Below are positions 1 to 14,038 of a stretch of DNA of 15,379 nt, one piece after another (the first letter of the stretch is position 1; every line of letters starts with the position of its first letter). The notes under the pieces are model-generated. The model was not told the DNA's origin. It did no database searches and saw nothing but the letters and a program-made list of their open reading frames with translations. Origin of the DNA: Oribacterium sp. UBA3737 (GTDB taxonomy: Bacteria; Bacillota_A; Clostridia; Lachnospirales; Lachnospiraceae); the NCBI GenBank assembly GCA_002371295.1, contig DFGZ01000189.1:1-15379 (forward strand). Direction: 5' to 3'. A program made the position numbers and the translations under genes.

Positions 1-476
1 CATGTATCATAATATGTGAAAAATGTTTCACAGGTTAATGTTCCGTCCATATCAAAAACGGCGATTCTATCCTTAACAGGAATGAATCCGTCTGAATTCT
101 CATCAACAGAAGCACTGACGAACTCTACAAGAGACTCCATGGCAGGAGAAGACGGATCCCATTTTGGAAGAGTTCCCTTCTTTTCGTTTTTCTTTTCTTC
201 AATGGAAATGATCTTACCATCATCATGAGAGGTAGTCTCTTCTGTTTCTTTTGCGGCTTCAGTTTCTTTTTCAGTTTCTGTTTCTTTCAACGCTTCAGTC
301 TCTGTGGCTTTTTCTGTTTCTTCAGCTTTTTCCGTTTCTTTCCCTGCTTCAGTCGCATCGCCTTCCGTGCTTTCGGCCTGAGCTTCGGTAACTGCTACAG
401 GAACAGATGTACTTTCACATGCTGTGAGACCGAGTGGCAGAGCCAGTGCCAATAACAGTGAAATAAATTTTTTCAT
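1..476 (-). CDS. HAD-family hydrolase lipoprotein, 3' part outside the window
   Basis: The first 158 residues are visible; the gene continues past the left edge. The start has a GGAGGAAG ribosome-binding site 7 nt upstream. Residues 1-20 form a lipoprotein signal peptide ending in the lipobox LTAC, with Cys20 as the expected lipidated residue, so the protein should be anchored outside the membrane. Residues 30-82 are a low-complexity linker of Glu, Thr, Lys and Ala. The catalytic domain starts around residue 105 (WDPSSPAMESL) and shows HAD motif I, FDMDGTL, with nucleophile Asp142 and acid/base Asp144. Known HAD enzymes with this motif are mostly phosphatases; the substrate cannot be told from this fragment. 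It lies downstream of the aminopropyltransferase gene on the same strand, 181 nt away. The HAD assignment is firm; membership of the upstream operon is doubtful. Confidence 0.88.
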   Translation of the reverse strand, partial: MKKFISLLLALALPLGLTACESTSVPVAVTEAQAESTEGDATEAGKETEKAEETEKATETEALKETETEKETEAAKETEETTSHDDGKIISIEEKKNEKKGTLPKWDPSSPAMESLVEFVSASVDENSDGFIPVKDRIAVFDMDGTLTCETFFTYYDT

Positions 477-657
477 ATTATTTCTTCCTCCGTACTAATA
501 GACACAAACTGTAAGGTAAGTGTTAAACTCGATACAGGAGCGCTTCGCGCTCACTTATATCACATTATGGGCTACCAAAAAAATTTCGACACCCAACATG
601 ATATGTATAAGCCACTTTTCTCTTTTTTTTTCATATTTTTTCAAAAAATATTTTTTA
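477..657. other. AT-rich spacer between speE-like gene and HAD lipoprotein gene
   Basis: Besides the palindrome at 531-561, this spacer holds long A/T runs near the speE stop, including the perfect 14-bp palindrome AAAAAATATTTTTT at 643-656. No open frame with a ribosome-binding site was found. No convincing promoter for the lipoprotein gene could be fixed; a weak TTAACA-like box lies near 521-526 (minus strand). Confidence 0.5.
531..561. repeat. Palindromic element, copy 1
   Basis: A 6-bp perfect stem (GAGCGC, loop TTC, GCGCTC at 538-552) is flanked by GATA on the left and TATC on the right. The left half reads GATACAGGAGCGCTTCGCG and matches the left half of the palindrome at 10240-10281 at 16 of 19 positions. 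It sits between the end of the speE-like gene and the start of the HAD lipoprotein gene. There is no clear T-run on either side, so a dispersed palindromic repeat fits better than a simple terminator. Confidence 0.55.
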
Positions 658-2163
658 TCAGTTCCAAAGCTCCTCTGCTCTGTTGTAGTACTCCATAAGA
701 ACAGGCTTCGTGAGATGGTTCACCTCAACGTCTGTATCAATTTCGTCCTTGCCGAATTTGAAAAGGGCGATGACATTGTCATCCGAAATATATTTTGTCT
801 CAACATCAAAAGAAATCTCTTCGGAAAGCTCTCCTCTGCTGGCCATATTGAAGCCCCAGTCTCCGAAGGCAGGAACCTCCATATGATAAGGCTTTACGTT
901 AAAGCCTTCACTTTCTATAGTCTTGTTTATGCACCAGAATGCCTTGGTGGCATAATAAGGGCTGGTGGACTGAACCACCAGAACGCCTGAATCCGTAAGA
1001 CATCCTGAACACATTCTGTAAAAAATATTGGAATAAAGCTTGTTCAGCACCTCTGTATTTGGATCCGGCAGGTCCACAATTATCACATCATACTGATCTT
1101 TACAGTCCTCAAGATACTCATATGCGTCCATGTTGTAGATATTGAGCTTGTCCGAAAGAAGACTGTTTCCGTTAATTTCCGTCACATTTTTGTTGGTGCT
1201 GCATATCCTTATCATCTCGGAGTCAAGGTCCACGAGATCTATTTTCCTGACTTCCGGATATTTAAGTACCTCACGGACTGCAAGCCCGTCTCCGCCACCC
1301 AGGATAAGGATATTCTCTCTTTTTTTTACCTCGTTCATGGGAACATGTACCAATGCTTCATGATAGCGATATTCGTCAGAGGTTGAGAACTGACAGTTAC
1401 CGTCGATATAGAGCCTTACGTCATCCCTGTGCTTTGTCATGACGATCTTCTGGTACTGGGTCTGCTCAATGAGCACTACTTTATCCCTGTAAAGACCGCT
1501 TTCTATGGATTCCGAAATATTGTCCGCCATGACCATGCCTGCCAGCATCAGGAAGACGAGAGCCACTGCAAGTGTACGGAATACCCTGATATTATCGACT
1601 CTTTTTCCGAATCTCCACATGATGAGCAGTGCTGCAGCTATATTCAGGAATCCGCACAAAAATGAAGTGGCGAAGTATCCGAGCTTCGGGAGAAGTATGA
1701 GTGGAAATGCTATGGAGCCTATAAGTCCGCCAATATAGTCAAAACTGAAGATAGATGAGAGGGTCACCTTCAGATTGTTCTCATCCTGCTCTATGATTCT
1801 GGTCATGACAGGAATCTCGGCTCCTGCAAAGGCTCCGATAATTATTATTTCAAGGTACATGACCATTGCATAATTGGATATATAGATATTGGCAAGGAAA
1901 AGTACCAGGGAACTGATACCTCCGATGACTCCTATTCCGAGCTCTATGGTCACAAAGATGTTGAAAAGATTATTTGAAAAATATTTGGAAACATAGGATC
2001 CGAGTCCCAGTGAAGCCATGTAAAGACCTATGGTCACCGAGTACTGGAGTGTACTGTTTCCTAAAAGATAAGAACTTACTGCGCTGATGATAAGCTCATA
2101 ACACATGGAACACCCTGAGATTATCAGGGTGGTCAGCATCAGAAGTCTGTACTTTTTACTCAT
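658..2163 (-). CDS. Membrane-anchored spermidine synthase-like aminopropyltransferase
   Basis: This 501-residue protein has about seven hydrophobic segments in residues 6-215, then a spermidine synthase fold. SpeE-type features are YHE at 267-269, the AdoMet-fold loop GGGDG at 289-293, VDLD at 311-314, MDA at 345-347 and DLPDP at 364-368, where the conserved Asp residues of the active site lie. The family transfers an aminopropyl group from decarboxylated S-adenosylmethionine to an amine. Soluble SpeE proteins are near 280-300 residues, so the membrane domain is an addition, known in a subset of the family. The open frame reaches 2253, but the start at 2163 has AGGAAGG upstream and begins directly before the first membrane helix; the earlier Met codons have no ribosome-binding site. 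It is the last gene of the block and should use the product of the SpeD-like gene. The acceptor amine is unknown. Confidence 0.88.
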   Translation of the reverse strand: MSKKYRLLMLTTLIISGCSMCYELIISAVSSYLLGNSTLQYSVTIGLYMASLGLGSYVSKYFSNNLFNIFVTIELGIGVIGGISSLVLFLANIYISNYAMVMYLEIIIIGAFAGAEIPVMTRIIEQDENNLKVTLSSIFSFDYIGGLIGSIAFPLILLPKLGYFATSFLCGFLNIAAALLIMWRFGKRVDNIRVFRTLAVALVFLMLAGMVMADNISESIESGLYRDKVVLIEQTQYQKIVMTKHRDDVRLYIDGNCQFSTSDEYRYHEALVHVPMNEVKKRENILILGGGDGLAVREVLKYPEVRKIDLVDLDSEMIRICSTNKNVTEINGNSLLSDKLNIYNMDAYEYLEDCKDQYDVIIVDLPDPNTEVLNKLYSNIFYRMCSGCLTDSGVLVVQSTSPYYATKAFWCINKTIESEGFNVKPYHMEVPAFGDWGFNMASRGELSEEISFDVETKYISDDNVIALFKFGKDEIDTDVEVNHLTKPVLMEYYNRAEELWN

Positions 2164-2289
2164 TAAAAAACGCCTTCCTAAAGGGCTGTAACGCCCAAGA
2201 ATAAAAATTAATATCCGGTCATCCTGAAACGGAATTTTCATTAATGAATCCATTTCTTATCAGGCCTGTTCATCTCAGGATGTACCGGC

Positions 2290-2706
2290 TCACTGAATCA
2301 CACCGCTTACGATGAAAGCCACTCCCATAAAGATTCCGAAGATCATGATTCCTGCAGCCTCATTCTTCTTGCTGAGCTCAACTCCAAAATTGAACTTTGT
2401 GTTCACGAGATCTACGATGAAATAGCCTAACATAAGTGCGATTACTCCGATTCCGGCAAATTCAGCCGTACTGATAACGCCCTGCAGAAGTTCGTGAGCT
2501 TCTGACACTTCAATAGAGATTATAGCTGAACGGATGATAAATCCGAGAGCCATGTATATTCCTGCCGATACCCAGCCTACAGATTTGTTTCCTTCCTGAA
2601 TTTCCTTTGGAAAATCAACCGGGATCAAAAGATCGATGATGAAATAAGCTGCCATCATTACTGCAAGTCCAACTGCAAGATAAACCAATGTTTCAAGTGC
2701 TACCAT
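2290..2706 (-). CDS. DUF350 family membrane protein
   Basis: This is a 138-residue protein, the usual length for DUF350, with four predicted membrane helices (about residues 6-27, 44-64, 77-100 and 116-136). It is an internal duplication: residues 12-63 and 86-137 align, each with a YFI[IV]DL motif at the end of one helix, a charged loop (KEIQEGNKS versus LSKKNEA), then a Gly-rich helix. The longest frame starts at 2850, but the ATG at 2706 has GGAGGA 7 nt upstream and coincides with the start of the conserved domain. DUF350 proteins have no agreed function. They are found beside envelope-stress and polyamine-type genes, for example yjfL in E. coli. Here the gene lies between DUF4178 and the membrane SpeE, which suggests a channel, carrier or scaffold role at the membrane; that role is inference. 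Confidence 0.85.
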   Translation of the reverse strand: MVALETLVYLAVGLAVMMAAYFIIDLLIPVDFPKEIQEGNKSVGWVSAGIYMALGFIIRSAIISIEVSEAHELLQGVISTAEFAGIGVIALMLGYFIVDLVNTKFNFGVELSKKNEAAGIMIFGIFMGVAFIVSGVIQ

Positions 2707-2713
2707 GATAAAT

Positions 2714-2740
2714 TCCTCCGTTTTTGAATCCTCTGTTTTT
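2714..2740. repeat. Tandem duplication at the DUF350 ribosome-binding site
   Basis: Two 12-bp units, TCCTCCGTTTTT (2714-2725) and TCCTCTGTTTTT (2729-2740), differ at one base and are offset by 15 bp. On the minus strand they read as two purine-rich AAAAACnGAGGA blocks; the one closer to the start codon is the ribosome-binding site of the DUF350 gene. This may be a small local duplication. Confidence 0.5.
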
Positions 2741-2885
2741 GGATTATGATTTAAAATATGCTGATGTGTAATTAAAAATTCATTCGCCGGACATACTCTG
2801 AAGATCCGGACGAAATAATTCAGGTTTCTGCGAAAACTATCAAAGCTCACATATCATGAACCGGATATAAATAAGCATTAAAGAT

Positions 2886-3956
2886 TTATTTTCCTCCGCT
2901 GAGTCCTCCGCCTGAGGAATTTCTGGCATTTATGCTGCTCTGCTTGACAGAAGACGAATAACTGTCGAAGTATCCGTTTCCTATGTTATGAATTGTATCT
3001 CCGCTATAGTTTGTGTAAGCGGAAGGCGTGTGGCTAAAGGTACTTGAATCTTTAGAAAAACCGGAACTGTAATAATGGCTCCTGTACCAGTGACTTGTGG
3101 ATTCCGAACTCTTATACGGCGTATTTCCCGATGAATAATTGTATTTTCTGTCAGAGACCTGAATAAGTACTTTATCGGGATCGTCTTCGGCATGATAAAT
3201 AAGACAGTATTCTTTCTTCGTCAATATAGCTATATCCCCGTCTTCCTGTTCATCCTTCTGTGTGACTGATTCGGTATAGCCTTCTATGCCGTTTATTATG
3301 TCTTTTGCGACATTATCCGTGGTGACTATGACATCCAGATACTTGTATACGTCAGCCTTTTGTTTTTCATTGCCTGTTATGGATGTCACATATTCGTACT
3401 TCGCATCCGATTTAACATACTGACTTATGGATTTCGGCCGGTTCATTAAAGCACCGATCAAATCACCTAGCCCGTATAATGCCAAAAATGCTATTGTGAT
3501 GATAACACTGAAACCCATATTGCTTGCAGGCTTTTTATATCCCACAACCTTGATCTCATTCAAATCAAGATACTCCCCCTGGGAATATTCGGTACCGTCA
3601 CTCCACATCTCTACCGATAGGGTCTTTTCTTCCGTCTGATCCTCAAATTCAACGAAGTCTGCAGCCTCTCCCGTATCTACATCCACATCTCCCAGGTGAG
3701 CCACCACCACCTGATGACCCTTATCCACCTCATGCCACTCAGGTCCTACATTGCCGCGAATGTGATTTGCCGCCCAGGAAATAGAGTATTCTTTGTAAAC
3801 ATCATCTATGGAGAGCCATCGCTCTCCTTTGTTTGTCTTAAGCCTGTACTCTGTCCAGGTTTTGTTGCCATCCAAGGTGTTTTTATACCTTATCCACCCT
3901 ATGACATGGGCTTCAAGACCGTCTATATTCAAAATCGATCCTATTTTTATATCCAT
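2886..3956 (-). CDS. DUF4178 domain membrane protein with Ser/Tyr/Gly-rich C-terminal tail
   Basis: The protein has 356 residues. Residues 1-140 resemble DUF4178: a repeated small beta-rich pattern with conserved Trp and Glu (W34..EY, W47LSID, W118). A single membrane helix lies at about 147-170. Residues 178-295 are a soluble region on the other side of the helix (VYKYLDVIVTTDNVAKDI, then a Tyr-rich stretch) that resembles DUF4247, a family I recall next to DUF350 and SpeD genes in Bacillales; this is a weak match by eye. Residues 274-356 are low complexity, rich in Ser, Tyr, Asn and Gly, ending in GGGLSGGK. A GTG start at 3971 is possible, but the ATG at 3956 has GGAGAG 6 nt upstream. The gap to the SpeD-like gene is 17 nt, so the two are surely co-transcribed. 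Function unknown. Confidence 0.75.
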   Translation of the reverse strand: MDIKIGSILNIDGLEAHVIGWIRYKNTLDGNKTWTEYRLKTNKGERWLSIDDVYKEYSISWAANHIRGNVGPEWHEVDKGHQVVVAHLGDVDVDTGEAADFVEFEDQTEEKTLSVEMWSDGTEYSQGEYLDLNEIKVVGYKKPASNMGFSVIITIAFLALYGLGDLIGALMNRPKSISQYVKSDAKYEYVTSITGNEKQKADVYKYLDVIVTTDNVAKDIINGIEGYTESVTQKDEQEDGDIAILTKKEYCLIYHAEDDPDKVLIQVSDRKYNYSSGNTPYKSSESTSHWYRSHYYSSGFSKDSSTFSHTPSAYTNYSGDTIHNIGNGYFDSYSSSVKQSSINARNSSGGGLSGGK

Positions 3957-3973
3957 ACTACTCTCCAACACGG

Positions 3974-4315
3974 TTATTCACCGCTTTTTATGTCCCTTTC
4001 AATGACTTGTATCTTTATTTCTTTTGCCTGAAACAATTCCCTTAACTTTTCAGAAATTCCGTCCACCACAGCATCGGTACATGAAAAAATATCTATGGCG
4101 GCATAACCGTATTCCGGCCATGTGTGAACTGAAAAATGGGAAGTTGTTATCACGGCAAAATAAGTAACTCCTATAGGTTCGAACTCATGGATACATTCCT
4201 CCACTATCTCCGCCTCCACATACTTTATTGCCGTATGTGCAGCCTCTTTTATCCTTTCGGGATCATCTATGATCTCCCCACAGCCGTAAAGATCTGCCAC
4301 AAGCTGTTTTGCCAT
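3974..4315 (-). CDS. SpeD-like pyruvoyl-dependent S-adenosylmethionine decarboxylase proenzyme
   Basis: The 113-residue product has the length and pattern of class 1B AdoMet decarboxylases. Key residues by analogy to the Thermotoga enzyme are all in register: Ser59 (self-cleavage, becomes the pyruvoyl group), His64 and Cys79, within SHFSVHTWPEYGYAAIDIFSC. The residue before Ser59 is Thr, where the family nearly always has Glu, and the processing Ser of the GVS motif is Thr51. The family makes decarboxylated AdoMet, the aminopropyl donor for SpeE. Some SpeD homologs are known to have become ornithine or arginine decarboxylases, so the substrate here is open. The frame extends to 4444, overlapping the upstream gene, but the ATG at 4315 has AAGGAG 7 nt upstream and starts the conserved MAKQLVADLYGCG. 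The gene lies 17 nt before the DUF4178 gene. Confidence 0.87.
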   Translation of the reverse strand: MAKQLVADLYGCGEIIDDPERIKEAAHTAIKYVEAEIVEECIHEFEPIGVTYFAVITTSHFSVHTWPEYGYAAIDIFSCTDAVVDGISEKLRELFQAKEIKIQVIERDIKSGE

Positions 4316-4409
4316 CTGTTGCTCCTTCCATATCCATAATTTTAAAAACCATCTGCTCCCTGATGATTCAGTGTATCCACTTTTATGTATAATCCCATGC
4401 AGTGTTTGA

Positions 4410-4739
4410 TCAGTCACTTTGACTGTGAAGGGTTCCATAGTCATTTTCTGACCTTAGCCTTGGTGCTCCGCATTTTTTGCAGAAAGCCGAGTCTGAACGA
4501 TTATAGGAATCACAGAATTCACAGAGCCAGTCAGGTCTGTCCGTCGTCTTCGCTGCCTGTTCTTCTGTCAATGCAGCCGACCCCGGATCTTTCGGCAGAT
4601 AAAATACTGTGTCTATCCCTCTGGATTTACCGCAATTTGGGCATGTAGCAAACCGGGCTTTTACTCCTTTTGAGCCGCAGAACACACAATCCCATAGTCC
4701 TTCAATTCTTTTTTCTTCCATACTCTCTAAATCCGACAT
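4410..4739 (-). CDS. Double zinc-ribbon protein with a RanBP2-type finger
   Basis: This small protein (109 residues from the ATG at 4739) has two four-cysteine modules. The first is W16, Cys18, Cys21, Cys33, Cys36. The second, W71, Cys73, Cys76, Asn80, Cys87, Cys90 followed by GAPR, fits the RanBP2 finger spacing C-x2-C-x3-N-x6-C-x2-C exactly. Between them lies an acidic and Ala-rich linker. In eukaryotes such fingers bind single-stranded RNA or ubiquitin; the bacterial ligand is unknown and could simply be a protein partner. No membrane segment is present, so it should be cytosolic. The start is uncertain: ATG at 4739, ATG at 4721, ATG at 4754 or TTG at 4760 are possible, and none has a strong ribosome-binding site. 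It is the first gene of the block, 94 nt before the SpeD-like gene. Confidence 0.78.
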   Translation of the reverse strand: MSDLESMEEKRIEGLWDCVFCGSKGVKARFATCPNCGKSRGIDTVFYLPKDPGSAALTEEQAAKTTDRPDWLCEFCDSYNRSDSAFCKKCGAPRLRSENDYGTLHSQSD

Positions 4740-4770
4740 TGTATCGTTTAGCATATACAAGCTGACGATA

Positions 4771-4850
4771 CTTTATGTCATACTACTTTCACTAAATTAT
4801 TAAAAATTACAATTATTGATATGTTACTTAATAATATGACATATGTAAAG
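4771..4850. repeat. Inverted repeat upstream of the zinc-ribbon gene
   Basis: CTTTATGTCATA at 4771-4782 is matched in inverted orientation by TATGACATATGTAAAG at 4835-4850, with a 3-nt insertion (TGT) in the right arm. A smaller nested inverted repeat, ATATGT at 4819-4824 and ACATAT at 4839-4844, shares the right arm. The arms lie where a regulator could bind upstream of the five-gene block. A regulator site is inference; chance repeats are possible in such AT-rich DNA. Confidence 0.35.
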
Positions 4851-4955
4851 TTTCTTGTTTGTAAGCCCTCCGACATGGTATTAAAAAACTAAACGGCTGA
4901 TGATAAATAATCCTGATATTTAAGTAGCGAAGGAATCCTGCTGACTGTTCCTGTG

Positions 4956-4964
4956 TGCTATAAT
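4956..4964 (+). promoter_or_regulatory. Extended -10 promoter for the DUF975 gene
   Basis: TGCTATAAT is a perfect extended -10 element (TGnTATAAT), about 60 nt before the start codon. No good -35 box is found at 17 bp, which is tolerable for an extended -10. Transcription would start near 4971, leaving a leader of about 50 nt. Confidence 0.65.
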
Positions 4965-4983
4965 AGACTGCAAATGATACCTA

Positions 4984-5005
4984 TTGACATTACAGTTGAC
5001 ATTAC
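4984..5005 (+). repeat. Tandem TTGACATTAC direct repeat in the DUF975 leader
   Basis: TTGACATTAC occurs at 4984-4993 and again at 4996-5005, a 12-bp period. It lies between the predicted transcription start and the ribosome-binding site (AAAGGAG at 5011-5017). Although each copy contains a TTGACA hexamer, no -10 box follows at the right distance. It may be an operator or a local duplication. Confidence 0.5.
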
Positions 5006-5023
5006 GTTTGAAAGGAGATCATC

Positions 5024-5731
5024 ATGTGGGACAGAGCGTATGTAAAAGCACAGGGCAAAGCAAGCTTTAAGAGAAACTACCTTAATTCTGTTCTTGTTGC
5101 CCTCATCTATTCATTGTTTTTCATTGCATCAGGTTCATCGGTAAGAGGAAAAAAGATAGACAGGGAAACTTTAAACAATCCTGATTTCATAAAGATATTA
5201 ATGATTATTTTGGCTGTGGTTGGTGTTCTTATCATAATCGGTACTATAATCAAGATTTTTGTGTTCAATCCCCTTGAGGTTGGATGTAACCGGTTTTTCC
5301 TTGTGAACCAGTATGATATTGCCACAATCGGTGAAGTAGGATACAGCTATAAAAACAACTATATGAATGCTGTTTCCGGTATCTTTCTCCGTGATCTGTT
5401 CACATTTCTTGGCTTCATACTGTTTATCATTCCGGGTCTCATACTGGGATACTCCTACAGACTGGTACCCTATATCCTGGCTGATGATCCACAGATCAAA
5501 GGCTCCGATGCCCTGAGGATGTCAAGATCCATGATGCAGGGTCATAAGCTTTCCGCATTTATCTATGACCTTTCATTTATAGGCTGGTATCTTTTGGGAA
5601 TCATCACCTGCGGAATAGCCATTGCATTTTATGTACGTCCCTATAAGCTGAATGCCGACGCAGCCCTTTATCTTGCCATAAAGTCACAGAATGGTTATGA
5701 ACAGAAACAGCCGGAACAGTTTGGTATCTAA
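5024..5731 (+). CDS. DUF975 family integral membrane protein
   Basis: This 235-residue protein begins with the family-typical AKGKASFKRNY-like segment (here VKAQGKASFKRNYLNS, residues 8-23). Hydrophobic segments lie at about 24-38, 57-78, 120-150 and 184-209. The conserved block IIPGLILGYSYRLVPYILADDP (about 137-158) followed by ALRMSRSMMQGHK is typical of DUF975 proteins of Firmicutes. The function of the family is unknown. The start codon has a strong AAAGGAG site 6 nt upstream. It is a single-gene transcript, with its own promoter upstream and a hairpin downstream, divergent from the polyamine-type block. Shared regulation with that block is possible but not shown. Confidence 0.85.
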   Translation: MWDRAYVKAQGKASFKRNYLNSVLVALIYSLFFIASGSSVRGKKIDRETLNNPDFIKILMIILAVVGVLIIIGTIIKIFVFNPLEVGCNRFFLVNQYDIATIGEVGYSYKNNYMNAVSGIFLRDLFTFLGFILFIIPGLILGYSYRLVPYILADDPQIKGSDALRMSRSMMQGHKLSAFIYDLSFIGWYLLGIITCGIAIAFYVRPYKLNADAALYLAIKSQNGYEQKQPEQFGI

Positions 5732-5771
5732 TCGAAAACATTGAATCTTTAATCCTGGTTTAAGGCATATT

Positions 5772-5808
5772 AACAAAGGACCTCTGTCCATGACAGAGGT
5801 CCTTTGTT
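5772..5808. terminator. Bidirectional hairpin terminator between DUF975 and sbcC
   Basis: A perfect 17-bp stem (5772-5788 with 5792-5808, loop CAT) stands between two convergent genes. The T-run is weak on the plus strand (GTTGTTCGTATATTC) and absent on the minus strand, but the position and stem strength support a terminator for both transcripts. Confidence 0.8.
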
Positions 5809-5875
5809 GTTCGTATATTCTTTAATTGATTTTATCTCTATGACTTACTGATAAAAATGTGAATGATGTCAGTCT

Positions 5876-8800
5876 TTAAATACCTTTATCTATTTCAATC
5901 TGACTTCCGTTTTTGGTTTTCCTTACACGTATCTGCTGAGGTATATTCTCGATCAGTTCTTCTCTGTGACTGATAACACCTACCAGCTTATTGCTTCCTG
6001 AAAGATTGATAAGGATATCCATGGCACTGTCAATTGACTTCCGATCCAGAGTACCAAAGCCCTCATCTATGAACAGTGCATCCATCTGTACGCCTCCCAG
6101 ATTTGATGACACTGTATCGGACAGTCCCAGTGCCAGGCTCAGGGATGCCTTAAAGCTCTCACCGCCGGAAAGGTTTCCCACCGGTCTTCTGTGCCCTGTA
6201 TAATTATCAAGTACTTCAAGATCCAGGAAGTTATTGCTCTTTTTGCCCGGAGAATCTTCCTTTCGGTGAAGCTCATACTGGTTGTCACTCATAGGCTGCA
6301 AGCGTCTGTTGGCCGCTGCTATGATTCCATCAAATCCTGCTGCCTGAATATACTGCTCCAGGGTGATCTTTCCGTTTCCGCTGGTTCCTCTTACAAGCTC
6401 ATACAGCTTCCTTGAGATATTATAGTCTCTGGATGCCTTTTCGTAATCAGGACGCAGTGTAAGGATGTTTGTCTGTTTCTCCTCATTGTTCTTGATCCTG
6501 TTTGAAATGTCATTTTCAAGCTTGCGAATAGATAAGACAATTCCCTCCTGTTTCATGCAGTCACTGTTCAATGCTTCTATATCGACCTTCGTTTTACCCT
6601 TTGCATCTTCCTTTGCCTGCGCAAGCTGCCTGCTATTTGCCGCTGTATCCTGTCTGTATCTGTTTATGACAGCTTCACTTCCGGCAATTACATCTTCGGA
6701 TACAACAAGACCAAGCATTTCATCAAGTGAATTAAATCCCTGGGATAATAGCTTTCCGTCAAGAACCTCCTTTAAGTCCTTTTCATTCTCACTGTTCTCA
6801 ATAAGAGATGTCTCCAGCGTTTTTATTTCAGAAGTTACCGCTGTGAGCTCATTTTCAGCTTTTCTCTTTGCTTCAGAAGCTCCGCTTATCTCAGTGGTGA
6901 TCTCATTCAGTTTATCTTCTGATTTCTTTTTTTCTGATGCTGCAGTAGCTCCGTCAGGATAGCTCAGCTCCTTAAGTGTTTCCAGTTCTGTATTATATCT
7001 GGTCATGTCTGTGACGGTTTCATGGATTTTTGTTTCCAGTTCCCGCCTTTCCTTTTCCAGTTTTTCGGTCTTTTCACCTGCAGCCTTTTTAAGTGCTTCA
7101 TCAGCTTCCTTAAGACTGTCACATTCCTTTTCCAGTTCAATTACTTCTGAAGAATTTACAGCAGTTTTTTCCTGAAGAACCATATAGGATTTTTCCAGCT
7201 CCACCAGTAACACATCAGGATCCTTACTATCGACCCGTACATCGAGAATGCTGTTCCCGAGACACCCGAGTATATCCGTCACCATCTGACCTTCATATAC
7301 TTCAAGAGCTTTCTTTTGAACCTCGGCAGCGGTATTTGCATCAGCCTTCTTCGTCTGAAGCTCTGTTTCCCTTAATTTGATGGATTCAAACTCAGCTTCT
7401 GAAATGGATTTTTCCGGAAGCTTTGCAGGTTCCGGATGGTGAAGTGATCCGCATACCGGACATTTTTCTCCCTCTTTTAGCCCTTCTGCAAGAATACCTG
7501 CCCTGGAGTTTTCCAGAATCTTTTCGGTCATAAGTCTTTCTTTTACGGCTTCCTCATATTCAGAAAATGCCAGACTGTAAGCTATCTGCTTTCTTTTAAG
7601 ATCTTCTCTCTTTTTGATCAGCCCGTCCTTTTTACGGAGAATCTCCATAACCGTATCTGACAGCCGTTGCAAGTTCTCACCCTCAGTCCGGACCTTCAAA
7701 AGCTCATTTGGTTTTGTGCTTAATTTTTCCAGGGTTTCCTGTAGTGAACTGATTCTGCTTTTCAATTTGGTATCTTCCTCTGCCAAAAATGACTGTTTTT
7801 CCTGATACCGCGTCTTTACATCCTGTAATCCTGACAATATCTTTTTCAGCTCATCTCTCCTAAGATATTTCGCTTCCTCCTCTTTTATTCTGTTAATATG
7901 AATCAGAAGCTCAGATGCCTCAGCCTGACGCTTTTCAGCCTTTTCCAATCGCTCACCCGCCTTCAGGGCCTGATCTTTGGCAGTTTTCTTTTTCAGCTCA
8001 TATTCTTTAATTCTTTCTTCTGTATTTTTTATTTCCCTCTTTTTGGATTCCCATAAATCATAAGCAGGTTTAACATCATGGGAAGCAGCCTTCTGTCTCT
8101 TTAAAACTGCTTCAAGCTCATGGATTTCCTGCTTTCTGGCATTTAATATTCTGTTTTCCTTTTCAAGCTCTTCCAGTCTTTCGATAAATTTATTATTGGT
8201 CTTTGCATTAGCGAGAACAGTACTTAGCCTTTTAAGCTCATTCTCTTCGGACAAAAGTCTGTCTCCCACCGTTTTCTGTCTTTCCTTGTCGTTAGTTATC
8301 AAAGCCCCGGTGATCCTTAAGAACTCATCAAGATTCCATGCACTTTTTGAACTTCCTGCCTTTTCCTGAAGTTCGGATAATTCTGTAAAATACATATCAT
8401 CTTCATCAGCTTTAACATCACGGAAATACTGGATTATACTCTGTTCCGAATAGAGACGCCTGCTGTTTCCTGCATCCATTCTATCTTTCAGCTTATATTC
8501 GATGGCTTTGTAACCATTTGTCATAAAAATGGTCCTGAGGATCTCTGTTCTCTGGTCGGTCTTAGCATTTAACAGATTCCAGAATTCACCCTGAGCTATC
8601 ATCGCTATCTGTTTAAACTGCTTTTCGTCTATATGAAGAAGCTCTTTTACCTGAGCATTGACCTGAGTCACTCCCTCAGTCGGAACTTCTCCTTCCGAAT
8701 AAAAGACCGCCTTCTCCTTCTCTGTTATCACGCCTTCTCCGCGCTGCTTTTTACGCTCATAAGCCGGTTGTCTCCATACATGATACTTATGTCCCTGATG

Positions 8801-9055
8801 GGTGAAATAAAAATCAACGAAACTGTCCGCATCAGGTTTTGCATATTCACTTCTGAGATTTTTAGTATCTCTGTATGAACCGCTTGTTGTGCCGTACAAG
8901 GCAAAGCATATAGCATCAAAAATCGTAGTCTTGCCGGCTCCTGTGTCTCCGGAAATCAGAAATAGTCCCTTATCCTCAAATTGTTCAAAGTCTATCTCCG
9001 GCGTCAGGCCGGCATAGGGTCCAAACGCACTTATAATTAGTTTAACCGGCTTCAT
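5876..9055 (-). CDS. sbcC: SbcC, ATPase subunit of the SbcCD nuclease
   Basis: This 1059-residue protein has the Rad50/SbcC layout: Walker A GDTGAGKTT at 36-44, Q-loop at about Gln155, long coiled coils at about 195-510 and 550-900, a central zinc hook CPVCG at 532-536, the ABC signature LSGGESFK at 962-969, Walker B LFIDE at 994-998, D-loop GTLD at 1001-1004 and switch His1030. The length is close to the E. coli protein (1048). With SbcD it forms an ATP-driven nuclease that opens DNA hairpins and trims protein-blocked ends, in the cytoplasm on DNA. Its start overlaps the sbcD stop by 14 nt, which implies translational coupling. All key residues are present, so it should be functional. Confidence 0.97.
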   Translation of the reverse strand: MKPVKLIISAFGPYAGLTPEIDFEQFEDKGLFLISGDTGAGKTTIFDAICFALYGTTSGSYRDTKNLRSEYAKPDADSFVDFYFTHQGHKYHVWRQPAYERKKQRGEGVITEKEKAVFYSEGEVPTEGVTQVNAQVKELLHIDEKQFKQIAMIAQGEFWNLLNAKTDQRTEILRTIFMTNGYKAIEYKLKDRMDAGNSRRLYSEQSIIQYFRDVKADEDDMYFTELSELQEKAGSSKSAWNLDEFLRITGALITNDKERQKTVGDRLLSEENELKRLSTVLANAKTNNKFIERLEELEKENRILNARKQEIHELEAVLKRQKAASHDVKPAYDLWESKKREIKNTEERIKEYELKKKTAKDQALKAGERLEKAEKRQAEASELLIHINRIKEEEAKYLRRDELKKILSGLQDVKTRYQEKQSFLAEEDTKLKSRISSLQETLEKLSTKPNELLKVRTEGENLQRLSDTVMEILRKKDGLIKKREDLKRKQIAYSLAFSEYEEAVKERLMTEKILENSRAGILAEGLKEGEKCPVCGSLHHPEPAKLPEKSISEAEFESIKLRETELQTKKADANTAAEVQKKALEVYEGQMVTDILGCLGNSILDVRVDSKDPDVLLVELEKSYMVLQEKTAVNSSEVIELEKECDSLKEADEALKKAAGEKTEKLEKERRELETKIHETVTDMTRYNTELETLKELSYPDGATAASEKKKSEDKLNEITTEISGASEAKRKAENELTAVTSEIKTLETSLIENSENEKDLKEVLDGKLLSQGFNSLDEMLGLVVSEDVIAGSEAVINRYRQDTAANSRQLAQAKEDAKGKTKVDIEALNSDCMKQEGIVLSIRKLENDISNRIKNNEEKQTNILTLRPDYEKASRDYNISRKLYELVRGTSGNGKITLEQYIQAAGFDGIIAAANRRLQPMSDNQYELHRKEDSPGKKSNNFLDLEVLDNYTGHRRPVGNLSGGESFKASLSLALGLSDTVSSNLGGVQMDALFIDEGFGTLDRKSIDSAMDILINLSGSNKLVGVISHREELIENIPQQIRVRKTKNGSQIEIDKGI

Positions 9056-10199
9056 TAATCACACCTGCCTCTCGTGCAACAATTCTCATCACATCCATCT
9101 CTTCATCACTTATTTCACATCCATAGATAAGACTGTAGAAATCGTTTATAAGTTCTGTAAAAGATCTGTTCTGTGCTATTTTTGAAATATCCACCTGCTC
9201 TAGTTCTCTGGTGCGGGAATTATCGTAATCTATCTTTACAGTATTTGGATATGTCTGCTGGAATATGCCCATGGCATCATTGATAATGTCTTCATCCGTC
9301 AATGTGGCATAAATAAAATCCTCAGTTGAATGAACATTGGCAGTATTCAGAAGATCTGAGATTTTTCCTTTGATATGCCTCATATCACGCATTGGTTTCA
9401 GCGGAAACAGCTCTATTCCCACATTACCCTTCTCGTCAATAGTAATGACAGGAACGGACTTTTCATTATTCACTTCACTTAATGAATACTTAAGAGGAGA
9501 TCCTGAGTATCTTACTTCATCACGTCCGATGCGCTGAGGTGAATGTATATGACCTAATGCCACATAGTCAAATTCATCGAAAATGTCATAACCTATCTTC
9601 TCCACCAGCCCGACACTTTGAGTCCCTGCACTTTCCGAACCACCCAGTGCCAGATCCTCTCCTTTACCAGCCACAAACTGATGAGCCACCAGAACATTGC
9701 ATTTCTCTTTATCGATTTCTGCATCTTTAAGAATCACCCTAACAGCGTCTTCATAGCTTTCTATTTTTTCATCAGGGAAAAAGTGTCTGACCTGGGAGGC
9801 TTTTACAAAGGGTAAAAGATAAATATTGACCTCCTTCTCTCCATCCCTTATTACATGCTTATCCAGATGTCCGTTAAAGATCGCAGAAATATAAATACTG
9901 TTACTTTCGAAAAGCATACTGCCGAAATTCAGTCTGTCATCAGAATCATGATTTCCGCTTATCAGAAATGTACTGACCTGTTTTTTTGCAAGCTGATTCA
10001 GAAAGCTGTCCAAAAGACGTGTTGCTGCTTCACTTGGTATCGCTTTATCATAAACATCTCCCGCAATAAGTACAGCATCGATCTTTTCATCATCAACAAG
10101 CTTCAGAACCTGACCAAGTATATATTCCTGATCTTTTATCAGATCAAAATCACCAAGGGATTTACCAAGATGTAAATCGCCTAAATGTATTAACTTCAT
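9042..10199 (-). CDS. sbcD: SbcD, nuclease subunit of the SbcCD complex
   Basis: This 385-residue calcineurin-type phosphoesterase carries the five metal-binding motifs of Mre11/SbcD: GDLH at 7-10, GDVYD at 47-51, GNHD at 82-85, VAH at 171-173 and GHIH at 216-219. The C-terminal part (about 270-385) is the region that contacts SbcC. SbcD supplies the Mn-dependent nuclease activity of the complex. The start has a GGAGG site 8 nt upstream. sbcC follows directly with overlapping ends, the standard gene order. A perfect TATAAT on the minus strand at 10301-10306 would give a leader of about 95 nt that includes the palindrome at 10240-10281. Confidence 0.97.
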   Translation of the reverse strand: MKLIHLGDLHLGKSLGDFDLIKDQEYILGQVLKLVDDEKIDAVLIAGDVYDKAIPSEAATRLLDSFLNQLAKKQVSTFLISGNHDSDDRLNFGSMLFESNSIYISAIFNGHLDKHVIRDGEKEVNIYLLPFVKASQVRHFFPDEKIESYEDAVRVILKDAEIDKEKCNVLVAHQFVAGKGEDLALGGSESAGTQSVGLVEKIGYDIFDEFDYVALGHIHSPQRIGRDEVRYSGSPLKYSLSEVNNEKSVPVITIDEKGNVGIELFPLKPMRDMRHIKGKISDLLNTANVHSTEDFIYATLTDEDIINDAMGIFQQTYPNTVKIDYDNSRTRELEQVDISKIAQNRSFTELINDFYSLIYGCEISDEEMDVMRIVAREAGVINEAG

Positions 10200-10239
10200 T
10201 TACAAACCTCCGTTAGAATGTAACTGATTGTCTGTTGTA

Positions 10240-10281
10240 GTAGATATCGGACCGCTTCGCGGGAAGCGGTTCAATATCTAC
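10240..10281. repeat. 42-bp palindrome in the sbcD leader, copy 2 of the palindromic element
   Basis: The inner stem is GGACCGCTTC (10249-10258) with GAAGCGGTTC (10263-10272), loop GCGG, one G-T mismatch. The outer stem is GTAGATAT (10240-10247) with ATATCTAC (10274-10281), separated from the inner stem by one mismatch (C10248/A10273). The left half shares GATA..GGA.CGCTTCGCG with the element at 531-561. If the TATAAT at 10301-10306 is used, the hairpin lies in the sbcD leader RNA, about 40 nt before the start codon. Confidence 0.75.
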
Positions 10282-10300
10282 TTCTGACACTCACATCATT

Positions 10301-10306
10301 ATTATA
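10301..10306 (-). promoter_or_regulatory. Candidate -10 box for sbcDC
   Basis: TATAAT on the minus strand, about 102 nt upstream of the sbcD start. No convincing -35 hexamer lies 16-18 bp further upstream, so the call rests on the perfect -10 and its position. Confidence 0.4.
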
Positions 10307-10381
10307 GTATCATATCAAAATATAACTCGTTACATAATCCATATAGTAGTCCATGGTAGACAAATTATTAATTTTCATACG

Positions 10382-10410
10382 TTGTCACGCAAAACATTTT
10401 CTGATATTAA
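10382..10410 (+). promoter_or_regulatory. Promoter for the secreted-protein gene
   Basis: A TTGTCA -35 box (10382-10387), a 17-bp spacer and a TATTAA -10 box (10405-10410) preceded by TG (extended -10) lie about 95 nt before the start codon. Transcription would begin near 10417. Confidence 0.6.
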
Positions 10411-10504
10411 TTAAAATCCTGCTTATTTTCCACTATTTTATGTCGATATATAAACTGATAAGGTTATTTCAATCCATATATTTATGAAAAGGAGGTAAAT
10501 GGTG

Positions 10505-11056
10505 ATGAAAAAAAGACTGGCACTTTTACTTGCTGTGGTAATGGCGATTTTTTCACTTGGAATGGTTTCTTTTGCAAAAGGAAACAGTGTTACCGAAATG
10601 AGTTGGAGCGATGGTGAACAAGCTGTCAAGGAGAGTGGAATCAAGGGCAGTTTTGTCACTCTGGATGAGATCGATATCAAGTTCTGGGTACCAAACGACT
10701 ATAAACCGGTAAAGATTACCGCTGAGGAAAAAGAAGAGGGATACATCGCCTATTATGAGAATTCAAAGACCAATGGCGTTGTCTCTGTGATGTATGTGGA
10801 TCTTAACGGAATGTCCCTTGAGGAATATAAGAAAGAGCTTAAAGGAATGTCCGATGTTACCGAAGTCGAGGATTGTATAATTAATGATATTAAGTGCGTT
10901 GGCTATCGTATGCCGGAGCAGGATAGCCTGTGTTTATTCTATACTACTCAAAAAGGCTATGGACTTGAATTCACTTTCGCTCCTGTAACAGATGATGACG
11001 ATGACTCCATTCAGATTCCTGCATATATCATGAGTTCTATTATGGAAGCTGAATAA
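10505..11056 (+). CDS. Small secreted protein of unknown function
   Basis: The product has 183 residues. Residues 1-24 are a Sec signal peptide (MKKR, hydrophobic core, cleavage likely after SFA), so the mature protein should be exported; there is no lipobox and no cell-wall sorting motif. The mature part is acidic, has three Cys residues (124, 131, 143) and a DDDDD cluster at 163-167 that could bind a cation. I do not recognise the family; the pattern of a short exported domain with a FWVPNDYKP segment resembles conserved hypothetical proteins of Lachnospiraceae. Three in-frame starts exist (ATG 10499, GTG 10502, ATG 10505). The last has the best spacing to GGAGG at 10491-10495 and begins with a normal signal peptide. 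It stands alone between its own promoter and a hairpin. Confidence 0.8.
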   Translation: MKKRLALLLAVVMAIFSLGMVSFAKGNSVTEMSWSDGEQAVKESGIKGSFVTLDEIDIKFWVPNDYKPVKITAEEKEEGYIAYYENSKTNGVVSVMYVDLNGMSLEEYKKELKGMSDVTEVEDCIINDIKCVGYRMPEQDSLCLFYTTQKGYGLEFTFAPVTDDDDDSIQIPAYIMSSIMEAE

Positions 11057-11087
11057 ATTTTCAGATATAATCAAAAAAATCAACATT

Positions 11088-11124
11088 AACAGAGCGGCAT
11101 CCCATATCAGGAAGCCGCTCTGTT
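11088..11124. terminator. Bidirectional hairpin terminator between convergent genes
   Basis: An 11-bp perfect stem, AACAGAGCGGC (11088-11098) with GCCGCTCTGTT (11114-11124), has a 15-nt loop. It lies between the secreted-protein gene (plus) and the CapA-type gene (minus). On the minus strand a run of seven T follows after a short gap; on the plus strand the T-run is weak. Confidence 0.8.
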
Positions 11125-11127
11125 TCA

Positions 11128-12297
11128 TTAATTAAATTCAACCATAGTCAGTAAATATTCCCTGACCTTCTCAAGCTTACTTCTCTTCCATGCTCCTTCC
11201 TCAGCAGTACGTGAATAAGGTACCACAACCGAAAGATCCATATGGGCTTTCTCGAAGTAACCGTCAGGCTCCGTACTGAAGAAGTAAGCATTCCATACAT
11301 CCTCTCCCGCATTCATAAAACGATCCTTCTCAAGATAGATCATTTTTTTACGCTCTTCCTGAATGAAGGCGGATGCAGCAAGCGGGGATAATAATTCAAA
11401 TTCCTCTGCCCGGATATCTGTGAAAATCACCGGCAGCTCTGTTTCTTCTATAATTTCCGGTCCTCTCAGAATTTTCGTACCAACCGCCTCAAAGGTCATT
11501 TCTGTTTCCGTAAAGTTAAGTTTCAGAAGAACTCCCTCATCGGTATAGGGATGAGCCCTCTGATAGTCGGTATCAAATATGAAATTACCGAGAGAATAAA
11601 AGATCATTTTACCGTCATCAAATATCTCATAGTTCTCTGCAACATGGGGATGATGGGCCACCACTGCATCAGCACCCATTTCAAGATACCTGATGTACCT
11701 GTCTCTCGTGTAGGGATTCGGCATGGCAGCGAACTCTTCTCCACCGTGAGCCACAACTATGCACCATCTGCAGTGTTCCTTTATCTCTTTTATCCTTGAT
11801 TCTATACGCTCCATGTCATCCCAGCGGAAGACCCCGGGATCTGTGGCTGTTGCGGGAATACATTCTGCCATATAGGCAACCCCGAACATACCTATACCAC
11901 CGGCTTCATCAAGGATCACCGGCCTGGAAGCCTCTTCTTCATTTATATCAGCACCTATAGTACATGCTCCCGATTCCACCGCAAGACGCTTTGTATTGAG
12001 GAGTCCATCCGCTCCCGCATCCATGATATGGTTGTTTGAAATATTCCATATATCCGCATGGATGTTTTTTAGCACTGATACCGCAGCCGGATTCATGCTG
12101 TGGAAGAAAACGCCGTGACTTCCGTTGTCCTCTGCATCAGTCAAAGCACCTTCAACATTGGCAACCACATGATCAGCGCTATGAAAAAAATCCAGAAGTG
12201 ACGGAGATACAAGTTCAGGATCCTCCCAACGTTTAAACATATATTTATCAAAGCCTATATCCCCGGTAAAAACGATGGATGTTTTTTCATTTTTCAT
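11128..12297 (-). CDS. CapA-family metallophosphatase-like protein without signal peptide
   Basis: This 389-residue protein matches the CapA (poly-gamma-glutamate synthesis) family, a calcineurin-like fold: FTGD at 10-13, NVEG at 47-50, SNNH at 87-90, AHGG at 183-186, HHPH at 215-218 and GNF at 237-239. CapA of Bacillus anthracis is exported or membrane-bound, but here the domain starts at residue 7 and neither signal peptide nor membrane helix is seen, so the protein is probably cytosolic. No capB or capC gene is nearby, so capsule synthesis is not indicated. Residues 260-389 are a less conserved extension. The ATG at 12297 has GGAGG 5 nt upstream; the ATG at 12309 is less likely because it lies before that site. 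It is the only gene between a hairpin and the pepD gene. Confidence 0.87.
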   Translation of the reverse strand: MKNEKTSIVFTGDIGFDKYMFKRWEDPELVSPSLLDFFHSADHVVANVEGALTDAEDNGSHGVFFHSMNPAAVSVLKNIHADIWNISNNHIMDAGADGLLNTKRLAVESGACTIGADINEEEASRPVILDEAGGIGMFGVAYMAECIPATATDPGVFRWDDMERIESRIKEIKEHCRWCIVVAHGGEEFAAMPNPYTRDRYIRYLEMGADAVVAHHPHVAENYEIFDDGKMIFYSLGNFIFDTDYQRAHPYTDEGVLLKLNFTETEMTFEAVGTKILRGPEIIEETELPVIFTDIRAEEFELLSPLAASAFIQEERKKMIYLEKDRFMNAGEDVWNAYFFSTEPDGYFEKAHMDLSVVVPYSRTAEEGAWKRSKLEKVREYLLTMVEFN

Positions 12298-12358
12298 ATT
12301 TTCCTCCATAAGTCATAGAAAATCGTATTTACCCGAATTCGTATATGACCCGCCAAAT

Positions 12359-12382
12359 AAGTTTGAAAGTACACTTAAACTT
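12359..12382. repeat. Imperfect palindrome upstream of the CapA-type gene
   Basis: Two 12-bp arms, AAGTTTGAAAGT and ACACTTAAACTT, pair at 10 of 12 positions when one G-T pair is allowed. It lies about 60-85 nt upstream of the start codon, where a regulator could bind. No clear promoter was found beside it and no terminator for pepD was seen in the 12298-12464 spacer. Confidence 0.35.
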
Positions 12383-12464
12383 TAGTCTTATGCAACACTG
12401 ACCAATTTTCAAAAACCATATATAAACAGCACTTAAGACGGATCATCAAACATCACAGATCAAA

Positions 12465-13901
12465 CTATTTCAGTCTCTTGAGAGTCTCCAGCGTCAGCTT
12501 ATATATCCGTCCTGTACTTTCGATATGAAGTCGTTCTCCCGGCGTATGGATATCTGTCAGATCAGGCCCGATAGAAACAGCATCAAGTCCCGGCATCTTT
12601 CCTGAAAGGATACCGCACTCAAGTCCCGCATGAAGAGCCTCGACCTTAGGCTCGGTACCGTTAAGCGCCTTGTATGCCTCGATCATGGTATCACGAAGTC
12701 TGGAATCAGCCTTATACTCCCACGCTGAATAGGCTGCTCCCAATTCAACTTCTGCGTCAAGTGCTCGTGCCAATGCCTCAATACGTTCAGCAGTCTCATC
12801 TCTCTGAGAGTTGATACTTGATCTGGTCAGAATACTGAAGTAAACCGCATCCCCATCTGTATATACCTGACCGAGATTCGTGGAGGTCTGAACGAGTCCT
12901 TCTACCTCGGCACTCATCACCTGTACTCCGTTTGGCACGGTGAACATAAAACATACTATATTCTCACTTACTTTCCTGCTGAATACCGAAGCGGCCTCAG
13001 CAGATTCAAGCTTCACCCATACCCCGGGATCTGAGGCTCTGTACTCATTCCTGAGATTATGATCAAGCTCTGCCACTGCCTCTTCAGCAGCCTTCATATC
13101 CGACACCATTATCGTTGCCGAAGCCTCTCTCGGAATCGCATTGTCCTTTGTTCCGCCGAAAACCTCAGCGATCCGCATCTCTGTCTTCCGGGATATCTCA
13201 AACAGCGCACGTCCCAGCAGAATGTCAGCATTGGCACGTCCCTTGTGGATCTCTTCTCCTGAATGTCCGCCCTTAAGTCCGCCTACTTTAACCTTCAATG
13301 CCCTTCCTGCCAATGTTTCTCTCCCACCGAAGAATCTGGTCTGAACTCTTACCGCTCCGGCACAGCTTACCGTGAAGATACCATCAGCCTCGGAATCAAT
13401 ATTCAGAAGATACTTTGCCTTGAGATCAGAGGTATCCAGCGCTCTCGCTCCAACCATACCGATCTCTTCACCGACAGTGAATACGCACTCAAGTTCCGGA
13501 TGCTCTATATCGTGAGATGCCAGAATGGCCAGCTCCATGGCCACAGCTATACCATCATCTCCTCCCAGGGTGGTTCCCTTTGCTCCGATCACATCTCCAT
13601 CCACAAAAAGATCCAGCCCTTCTTTCATCATGTCCTTCATGCAGTCAGGTTCCTGCTCGGCGACCATGTCCATATGACCCTGAAGCATGACGGTCCCGGC
13701 ATTTTCATAACCTTTTGTCGCAGGCTTGAAGATCACTACATTACCGGCTTCATCCTGACGATATCTGAGTTCGTGTTCGATGGCGAATTTCACAAGATGA
13801 TCGCTTATAGCCTGAGTGTTTCCTGAACCATGCGGTATACCGCATATTTCCTCAAAATAATTAAATACTTCCTTTGGTTCCAGATTTGTTAATACGCCCA
13901 T
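12465..13901 (-). CDS. pepD: Aminoacyl-histidine dipeptidase (M20 family, PepD)
   Basis: The 478-residue protein is full length for PepD. Metal and catalytic residues of the M20 fold are in place: GHMDM at 75-79 (His76, Asp78), LGGDDG at 112-117 (bridging Asp), GEE at 144-146 (catalytic Glu145, metal Glu146), NIDSE at 167-171 (Asp169) and a C-terminal His in DIHTPGE. The GHSGEE segment lies in the lid domain. PepD is a cytosolic zinc enzyme that cleaves dipeptides such as carnosine-type Xaa-His, feeding peptide nitrogen use. The start has AAGGAAAA upstream at proper spacing. It follows the DUF819 gene after 137 nt and has its own likely promoter at 14015-14037. Confidence 0.95.
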   Translation of the reverse strand: MGVLTNLEPKEVFNYFEEICGIPHGSGNTQAISDHLVKFAIEHELRYRQDEAGNVVIFKPATKGYENAGTVMLQGHMDMVAEQEPDCMKDMMKEGLDLFVDGDVIGAKGTTLGGDDGIAVAMELAILASHDIEHPELECVFTVGEEIGMVGARALDTSDLKAKYLLNIDSEADGIFTVSCAGAVRVQTRFFGGRETLAGRALKVKVGGLKGGHSGEEIHKGRANADILLGRALFEISRKTEMRIAEVFGGTKDNAIPREASATIMVSDMKAAEEAVAELDHNLRNEYRASDPGVWVKLESAEAASVFSRKVSENIVCFMFTVPNGVQVMSAEVEGLVQTSTNLGQVYTDGDAVYFSILTRSSINSQRDETAERIEALARALDAEVELGAAYSAWEYKADSRLRDTMIEAYKALNGTEPKVEALHAGLECGILSGKMPGLDAVSIGPDLTDIHTPGERLHIESTGRIYKLTLETLKRLK

Positions 13902-14014
13902 ATTTTTTCCTTATATCAAAAAGACTGTCATACCTTATGAGTCATGATAAACATCTATACGAAATTTTCACTTTCTGAACATCATCATTCGTAACGATAT
14001 CTGAACTCATATAT

Positions 14015-14037
14015 AGTATAACAGCCCATTATTTCAA
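14015..14037 (-). promoter_or_regulatory. Promoter for pepD
   Basis: On the minus strand TGTTATACT (14023 down to 14015) is an extended -10 match, about 114 nt upstream of the pepD start. A TTGAAA hexamer lies at 14037-14032, but only about 11 bp from that -10; it pairs better (16 bp) with TATATA just downstream. Two overlapping promoters are possible. Confidence 0.45.
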
Positions 14038-14038
14038 T

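Follow-up and report, generated by a model that had tools for sequence, protein, structure and literature searches.

What does an aminopropyltransferase with a membrane part modify when its gene lies beside those for an S-adenosylmethionine (AdoMet) decarboxylase and two other membrane proteins? The question is raised by an operon at positions 658-4739 of a 15,379-nucleotide stretch of DNA (the window) from Oribacterium sp. UBA3737 (GCA_002371295.1, contig DFGZ01000189.1, forward strand, positions 1-15,379). On the minus strand the operon holds, in the order claimed by an earlier, sequence-only reading of this DNA, genes for a zinc-ribbon protein, SpeD, a DUF4178 protein, a DUF350 protein and a membrane SpeE; all five families were matched, the zinc ribbon weakly. 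That reading proposed that the aminopropyl group is put on a membrane-linked target, and not only on putrescine, the target being a lipid, an exported small molecule or the tail of the DUF4178 protein. Comparison with relatives supports such a target at the level of sequence and favors the DUF4178 tail over the other two options, because of gene linkage, separate polyamine genes and, above all, a near-invariant C-terminal Gly-Lys or His-Lys of the exported partner. It is proposed here, with a probability of about 0.6, that an exported tail would receive a SpeD-derived aminopropyl group on its C-terminal lysine.

Tails ending in lysine beside the membrane aminopropyltransferase

The tails were surveyed in 127 membrane-SpeE locus records from Bacillota, Bacteroidota, Pseudomonadota and Gemmatimonadota, representing 126 distinct places (one place is recorded twice, as L080 and L220). 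A partner protein ending in Gly-Lys (GK) or His-Lys (HK) was found in 123 of the 127 records, or 122 of the 126 places. The tally rests on 100 GK and 16 HK ends called automatically, two read by eye (L149 and L193) and a frame on the divergent strand (L113), and it also counts a partner gene split by a contig end (L075); for three Lachnospiraceae loci without a partner in cis (L038, L039 and L042), a GK- or HK-ended partner was found in trans. All 25 aligned DUF4178 sequences end in Gly-Lys despite the variable length of the preceding residues. A SpeE profile scan of the genome collection yielded 181 confirmed relatives, and among the best 80 of these 181, the set used for linkage counts, Gly-Lys was observed wherever the end of the DUF4178 gene is present.

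The same endings were found in evenly drawn samples. Membrane SpeE scored above the cut-off in 13 of 398 Bacillota-type genomes, with a GK-ended partner in 13/13, mostly DUF4247-type lipoproteins or membrane-anchored proteins, and in 29 of 395 Bacteroidota-type genomes, with GK or HK at 27 of the 29 loci (11 GK, 16 HK; the other two end in GG). Thirteen plasmid records had a match; seven regions were fetched and six used, a partial Rhodovulum SpeE being excluded. Their tails end in GK in Ensifer, Gemmatirosa and Alteromonas, in HK in Novosphingobium and Burkholderia, and in VK in Tritonibacter. Overall, GK/HK tails sit on at least four unrelated carriers, which include the DUF4178 fusion, the DUF4247 lipoprotein, a lipoprotein of 232-254 amino acids (hhalign probability against the window domain, 1.8), one-helix proteins of 45-83 amino acids and a long Alteromonas protein.

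As background, open reading frames of at least 100 amino acids were taken from the same loci, lying either over 5 kb away from SpeE or on the strand opposite to it. Only 2 of these 749 frames end in GK or HK (96 end in K), and none of the 277 with a hydrophobic segment does so; a GK- or HK-ended neighbor was likewise found at none of 10 soluble-SpeE loci. DUF4247 was detected in six of 149 genomes sampled, and the four with a membrane SpeE all have GK tails (4/4). The two DUF350-DUF4247 operons without a membrane SpeE above the cut-off contain a PspA-like gene, as judged by eye, and tails reading RVGGGRIMRRR and GSGKIRKRGRR; in these DUF4247 lipoproteins (L228:6461-7210 and L229:6289-7050), polybasic ends replace GK.

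The HK-associated enzymes form one clade in a midpoint-rooted SpeE tree of 61 thinned sequences (local support 0.999), with HK in 18 of its 19 members and HGK in the remaining one. A flavin oxidoreductase gene follows SpeE in the HK loci, and the two that were scanned match Amino_oxidase. The flavin amine oxidases at L195:7506-9122 and L203:7499-9088, downstream of membrane SpeE, show twin-arginine-like N-termini by eye.

A different ending was observed beside ATP-grasp enzymes of the peptide-spermidine ligase type. In Escherichia coli, YgiB and YjfM adjoin YgiC and YjfC, which are peptide-spermidine ligases by RefSeq name, and end in SRSMGG and RGHWGG, respectively; in K-12 (YgiB, L118:3745-4416; YjfM, L221:6388-7026) the Gly-Gly follows a Gly/Ser-rich tail. 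GSP_synth was found in 17 of 390 Bacteroidota-type genomes, and Gly/Ser-rich-tailed neighbors at 13 of these 17 loci, picked by eye and mostly adjacent to the gene, end in GG (seven), Ser (four) or Ala (two), and none in Lys; no GK or HK end occurs among the same-strand neighbors listed at the GSP_synth loci. Which residue stands at the end thus seems to depend on the reaction of the neighboring enzyme, since aminopropyl transfer needs an amine and amide ligation a small residue whose carboxylate is free. This pattern suggests YgiB and YjfM as candidate natural substrates of YgiC and YjfC. A hybrid arrangement was seen at L211:3832-7529, which encodes a membrane SpeE, a divergent tail protein (ending GSGKSTRSYGG), an ATP-grasp GSP_synth (E 3.9e-81) and SpeD; L212 is similar.

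The enzymes, the tail protein and their gene order

The membrane SpeE scores 599.5 bits against NF002956 (cut-off 472), and its catalytic domain resembles solved aminopropyltransferases in sequence and fold, its model matching 1uir, 3anx and others. The catalytic residues described as conserved by the sequence-only reading are indeed so: Tyr267, His268, Glu269, Asp314, Asp346, Asp364 and Asp367 are invariant in 127/127 membrane SpeE, and the enzyme is therefore predicted to be active. The stretch from residue 431 to Trp436 comprises six residues in 127/127, two fewer than in all 10 soluble SpeE, in which the acceptor loop before the conserved Trp reads TYPSG, TYPAG or TCPAG (n = 10).

The estimate of about seven helices in this protein fits the seven hydrophobic segments found over the 127 aligned relatives. 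In 93-100% of sequences each of the seven has a mean exceeding 1.0; helix 2 is the weak one, with a mean best 19-residue hydropathy of 1.27 against 1.68 to 2.15 for the others. The structural model (mean predicted local distance difference test score, pLDDT, 89.6) merges helices 5 and 6 into a single stretch, residues 131-184, over-long for one crossing. Mean Lys+Arg counts over the 127 proteins are 2.58 at the N-terminus, 2.57 in loop 2-3, 2.43 in loop 4-5 and 4.17 in loop 6-7, compared with 0.16, 0.13 and 0.55 in the opposite loops 1-2, 3-4 and 5-6; the first residues past helix 7 average 1.73 Lys+Arg and 3.38 acidic residues. Applied to seven helices, the positive-inside rule predicts an N-terminus on the inside and puts the catalytic domain, which follows helix 7, probably outside the cytoplasmic membrane.

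The DUF4178 protein (PF13785, 51.3 bits, cut-off 25; at E up to 5, a match was obtained for 69 of 70 aligned members) consists of the DUF4178 domain, one helix, a second domain and a tail ending in GGGLSGGK. Its model has a mean pLDDT of 90.9, falling to 44 in the last block, and the charges beside the helix lean mildly toward an N-in orientation (2.54 vs 1.70). Pfam DUF4247 (PF14042) does not match the window protein, and it is absent among the families listed (25 of 53) for the 70 aligned relatives. In hhalign comparisons with DUF4247 lipoproteins the second domain gave 97.4% with the tail and 65-79% without it.

SpeD matches PF02675 (109.8 bits, cut-off 25) and TIGR03330 (99.0 bits, cut-off 75.65). 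As claimed before, its catalytic residues are kept: alignment to 1tlu places Ser, His and Cys at the equivalents of Thermotoga maritima S63, H68 and C83, positions named for that AdoMet decarboxylase in part of PMC10407285. As to its substrate, presumed to be AdoMet rather than ornithine or arginine, the protein has HTWPEYGYAAID, the same as the T. maritima enzyme. Each of 10 relatives searched has exactly one SpeD match and a further SpeE of the soluble kind (in frames of 280-297 amino acids). The sole SpeD is that of the operon in 8/10; in the other two it is a longer gene elsewhere, class 1a by TIGR03331 in one. The soluble-SpeE clusters of three relatives (L095, L102 and L104) were scanned with NCBIfam, and all three contain a lysine/arginine/ornithine-decarboxylase-like protein under the curated cut-offs. 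A carboxynorspermidine synthase homolog is found in L095 and L104, below its cut-off, and genes above cut-off are nspC and agmatine deiminase in L104, and class 1a SpeD and agmatinase in L102. Since these clusters hold polyamine genes, spermidine-type polyamines of the relatives plausibly have genes of their own, and the operon SpeD may nonetheless supply the soluble SpeE. In seven Lachnospiraceae (L095-L101), the soluble SpeE has YDE in place of YHE and TCPAG in place of TYPSG, and the only SpeD there is the operon's.

The neighborhood comparison proposed with the sequence-only reading showed the genes linked, not scattered, in relatives. The exact five-gene order was found at 38 of the 80 nearest SpeE loci, the order lacking only the zinc ribbon at 17 and DUF4178-DUF350-SpeE at 13; these loci are mostly from Lachnospiraceae and hence not independent. 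Among the 72 with more than 3.5 kb of sequence before SpeE, genes within 6 kb of it include DUF350 in 69, DUF4178 in 68, SpeD in 59 and the zinc ribbon in 41. The five-gene arrangement is not a product of chance. The zinc-ribbon gene is found chiefly in the Lachnospiraceae version of the operon.

Table 1. Features of the operon and of its proteins in the window
Feature	Position	Strand	Remarks
Zinc-ribbon protein	4410..4739	-	two CxxC..CxxC ribbons
SpeD, class 1b S-adenosylmethionine decarboxylase	3974..4315	-	PF02675, TIGR03330
DUF4178-membrane helix-DUF4247-like domain-Gly/Ser-rich tail protein	2886..3956	-	PF13785; proposed acceptor
DUF4178 beta-rich domain, residues 4-131	3564..3947	-	model, profile matches; predicted cytoplasmic
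Single membrane helix of DUF4178 protein, residues 147-171	3444..3518	-	model
Stop-anchored tail RNSSGGGLSGGK	2889..2924	-	invariant C-terminal Gly-Lys; proposed aminopropylation site
DUF350 membrane protein (YjfL family)	2290..2706	-	PF03994
Membrane aminopropyltransferase, PRK03612 type (SpeE)	658..2163	-	NF002956; seven-helix N-terminal part and C-terminal catalytic domain
Seven-helix membrane part, residues 1-213	1525..2163	-	hydropathy segments, model
Aminopropyltransferase catalytic domain, residues 227-470	754..1485	-	predicted extracytoplasmic

The best-supported start codons are the ATGs at 4739, 4315, 3956, 2706 and 2163, in operon order. For SpeD, the family agrees better with the ATG at 4315, which has a ribosome-binding-site-like sequence, than with the ATG farther upstream at 4444, and for DUF350 (86.5 bits on PF03994, cut-off 26) the alternative GTG at 2850 looks over-extended. 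The previously reported gap of 17 nucleotides between SpeD and DUF4178 holds provided that DUF4178 starts at ATG 3956. The zinc-ribbon protein, perhaps a cytoplasmic adaptor, reached 26.2 bits against Pfam DZR, below the cut-off of 27.3, and 14 homologs were obtained in a single homolog search; a 375-amino-acid protein upstream of the operon at L019:6244-7371 likewise matches its profile. On the minus strand, the gap between DUF4178 and DUF350 lacks a terminator-like site but contains three promoter-like matches, two of which overlap. These matches carry little weight, because their frequency in the region (15) is close to that in shuffles (12.3), and the five genes may or may not share a single transcript.

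Among the main open reading frames of the window that were scanned, no ornithine or arginine decarboxylase and no ATP-grasp ligase was found, in agreement with the sequence-only reading; the GSP_synth ATP-grasp gene of the peptide-spermidine ligase system, PspA and CesT/Tir had no match there either. PspA is present in the distant relatives L149 and L158. Elsewhere the window contains a lipoprotein-like gene start, truncated at the window end (3-476), whose product has a long linker rich in Glu/Thr and the motif FDMDGTL (haloacid dehalogenase type by eye), sbcC and sbcD homologs just past the operon (5876-10199), a PGA_cap protein (11131-12309), an M20-type beta-Ala-His dipeptidase (12468-13901) and a DUF819 membrane protein (14042-15232).

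What would accept the aminopropyl group?

In the proposed mechanism, SpeD would make decarboxylated AdoMet, an activity predicted from its family and catalytic residues, and the membrane SpeE would aminopropylate an exported or membrane-anchored partner at its C-terminal lysine, on the amine of the side chain. In the Oribacterium operon, this acceptor would be the DUF4178 protein. The lysine side chain, like putrescine, presents four carbons ending in an amine, and aminopropylated lysine would give a -(CH2)4-NH-(CH2)3-NH2 end, as in spermidine. Decarboxylated AdoMet would need to cross the membrane, because the SpeE catalytic domain is probably outside; the helical part of SpeE or DUF350 might, speculatively, provide the route. 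The result would be a tail that is polycationic and capped with polyamine and that acts at the cell envelope, which agrees with a gene context of PspA and DUF350. A broader idea, tentative and on balance doubtful, is that such capping is a widespread modification of the bacterial envelope and that exported tails are polyamine-capped in two convergent ways, by extracytoplasmic, membrane-anchored SpeE on a terminal Lys and by an ATP-grasp ligase joining spermidine to a terminal Gly, Ser or Ala, as on the tails of YgiB and YjfM.

Several observations weigh against aminopropylation of an exported lysine. Decarboxylated AdoMet outside the cytoplasm would be unusual. The predicted topology depends on the helix count, in which helix 2 has low hydropathy and helices 5-6 are modeled as a single one; the conserved cysteines of the catalytic domain would fit a location in the cytoplasm, too. 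Should that domain be cytoplasmic, the tail lysine could still be the acceptor and would be modified before export. SpeD, decarboxylated AdoMet and the known aminopropyltransferases are cytoplasmic, and YgiC, paired with the lipoprotein YgiB, would act likewise if cytoplasmic; this order of events nevertheless appears unlikely in view of the positive-inside pattern and the strength of the seven segments across 127 SpeE, and the twin-arginine-like flavin amine oxidase at HK loci would suit an extracytoplasmic product. The tail count, moreover, overstates independence, because close relatives supply the bulk of the 80 nearest loci. The partner at L115 ends in VK, as does a further neighbor at the ATP-grasp loci L230 and L235, no partner was found for L037 in a 2.3 Mb assembly, and at L211 and L212 a GG tail and an ATP-grasp gene accompany a membrane SpeE.

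The Gly/His-Lys end could instead be a docking, sorting or charge element. Taken together with SpeE acting on a lipid or small molecule, such a role for the tail is judged improbable: the polybasic tails of the two operons without a membrane SpeE indicate that charge may matter without the enzyme, and the DUF350 and PspA context is membrane-centered, but the terminal residue varies with the adjacent enzyme (Lys with aminopropyltransferase; Gly, Ser or Ala with ATP-grasp) and the terminal lysine recurs on unrelated carriers. The short acceptor loop of SpeE is weak evidence for a new acceptor, because solved enzymes vary too, thermospermine synthase and the Pyrococcus horikoshii spermidine synthase also being without the TYPSG form. 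The operon SpeD may serve ordinary polyamine synthesis as well, being the sole SpeD in 8 of 10 relatives. This fact and the intact catalytic residues of SpeE would fit an operon that simply makes free spermidine or another polyamine, with the remaining genes as bystanders. That account is very hard to reconcile with a separate soluble SpeE in 10/10 relatives, the polyamine gene clusters of the three scanned and the tight linkage of DUF350 and DUF4178; moreover, such fusions are reported to fail in complementing an E. coli speE mutant (Li et al. 2019).

Relation to known systems

Hypusine and deoxyhypusine on eIF5A are polyamine-type extensions of a lysine side chain. They resemble the proposed modification in this respect and differ in that an aminobutyl group from spermidine is added in the cytoplasm to an internal lysine by an unrelated enzyme.

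Clusters of an AdoMet decarboxylase, a fusion of a major facilitator superfamily-type membrane part with spermidine synthase, and DUF350 have reportedly been studied by Li et al. 2019 (Li, Kurihara, Kim, Liang and Michael, Biochem J 476:2579); the decarboxylases are said to work, the fusion to fail in complementing a speE mutant, and DUF350 to be clustered with them. They share the enzymes and DUF350 with the Oribacterium operon, and an acceptor other than putrescine was reportedly already proposed. That acceptor is not known to have been identified, whereas a C-terminal lysine tail is proposed here.

Operons with a seven-transmembrane-spermine-synthase fusion, DUF350, DUF4178, a lipoprotein and PspA have also been described, and polyamine monitoring or aminopropylation of other substrates suggested for them, in the available part of PMC11237479, which cites Li et al. 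These PspA-linked operons, for which DUF4247 and DUF2617 variants are also given there, have the seven-transmembrane synthase, DUF350 and DUF4178 in common with the present one. In the Oribacterium operon, by comparison with that part of the source, DUF4178 is fused to the tail protein and a zinc ribbon is added, and no PspA or CesT/Tir was found among the scanned frames. The tail is not mentioned in the available text, in which the terms glycine and lysine each occur 0 times.

The cluster core and the idea of another acceptor are hence not new, because clusters of AdoMet decarboxylase, membrane spermidine synthase and DUF350 are already published, with DUF4178 in such operons too. No acceptor for the membrane aminopropyltransferases of these clusters was found in the literature, and the candidate acceptor, the C-terminal lysine tail, is the new element here: a near-invariant, stop-anchored lysine on unrelated exported carriers is a concrete candidate. 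If the broader idea with extracytoplasmic SpeE is true, C-terminal N-epsilon-aminopropyl-lysine would be a new protein modification, and an AdoMet-derived cofactor would be used outside the cytoplasm.

The YgiC/YjfC systems with the DUF1190 proteins YgiB/YjfM (Pederick et al. 2023) likewise pair a polyamine enzyme with an exported neighbor whose tail is rich in Gly/Ser, and the yjf operon includes DUF350. They combine an ATP-grasp ligase with a GG end, whereas the Oribacterium operon combines an aminopropyltransferase with a GK end. The switch to GG-type ends beside ligase-type enzymes would join both under the idea of polyamine-capped envelope proteins.

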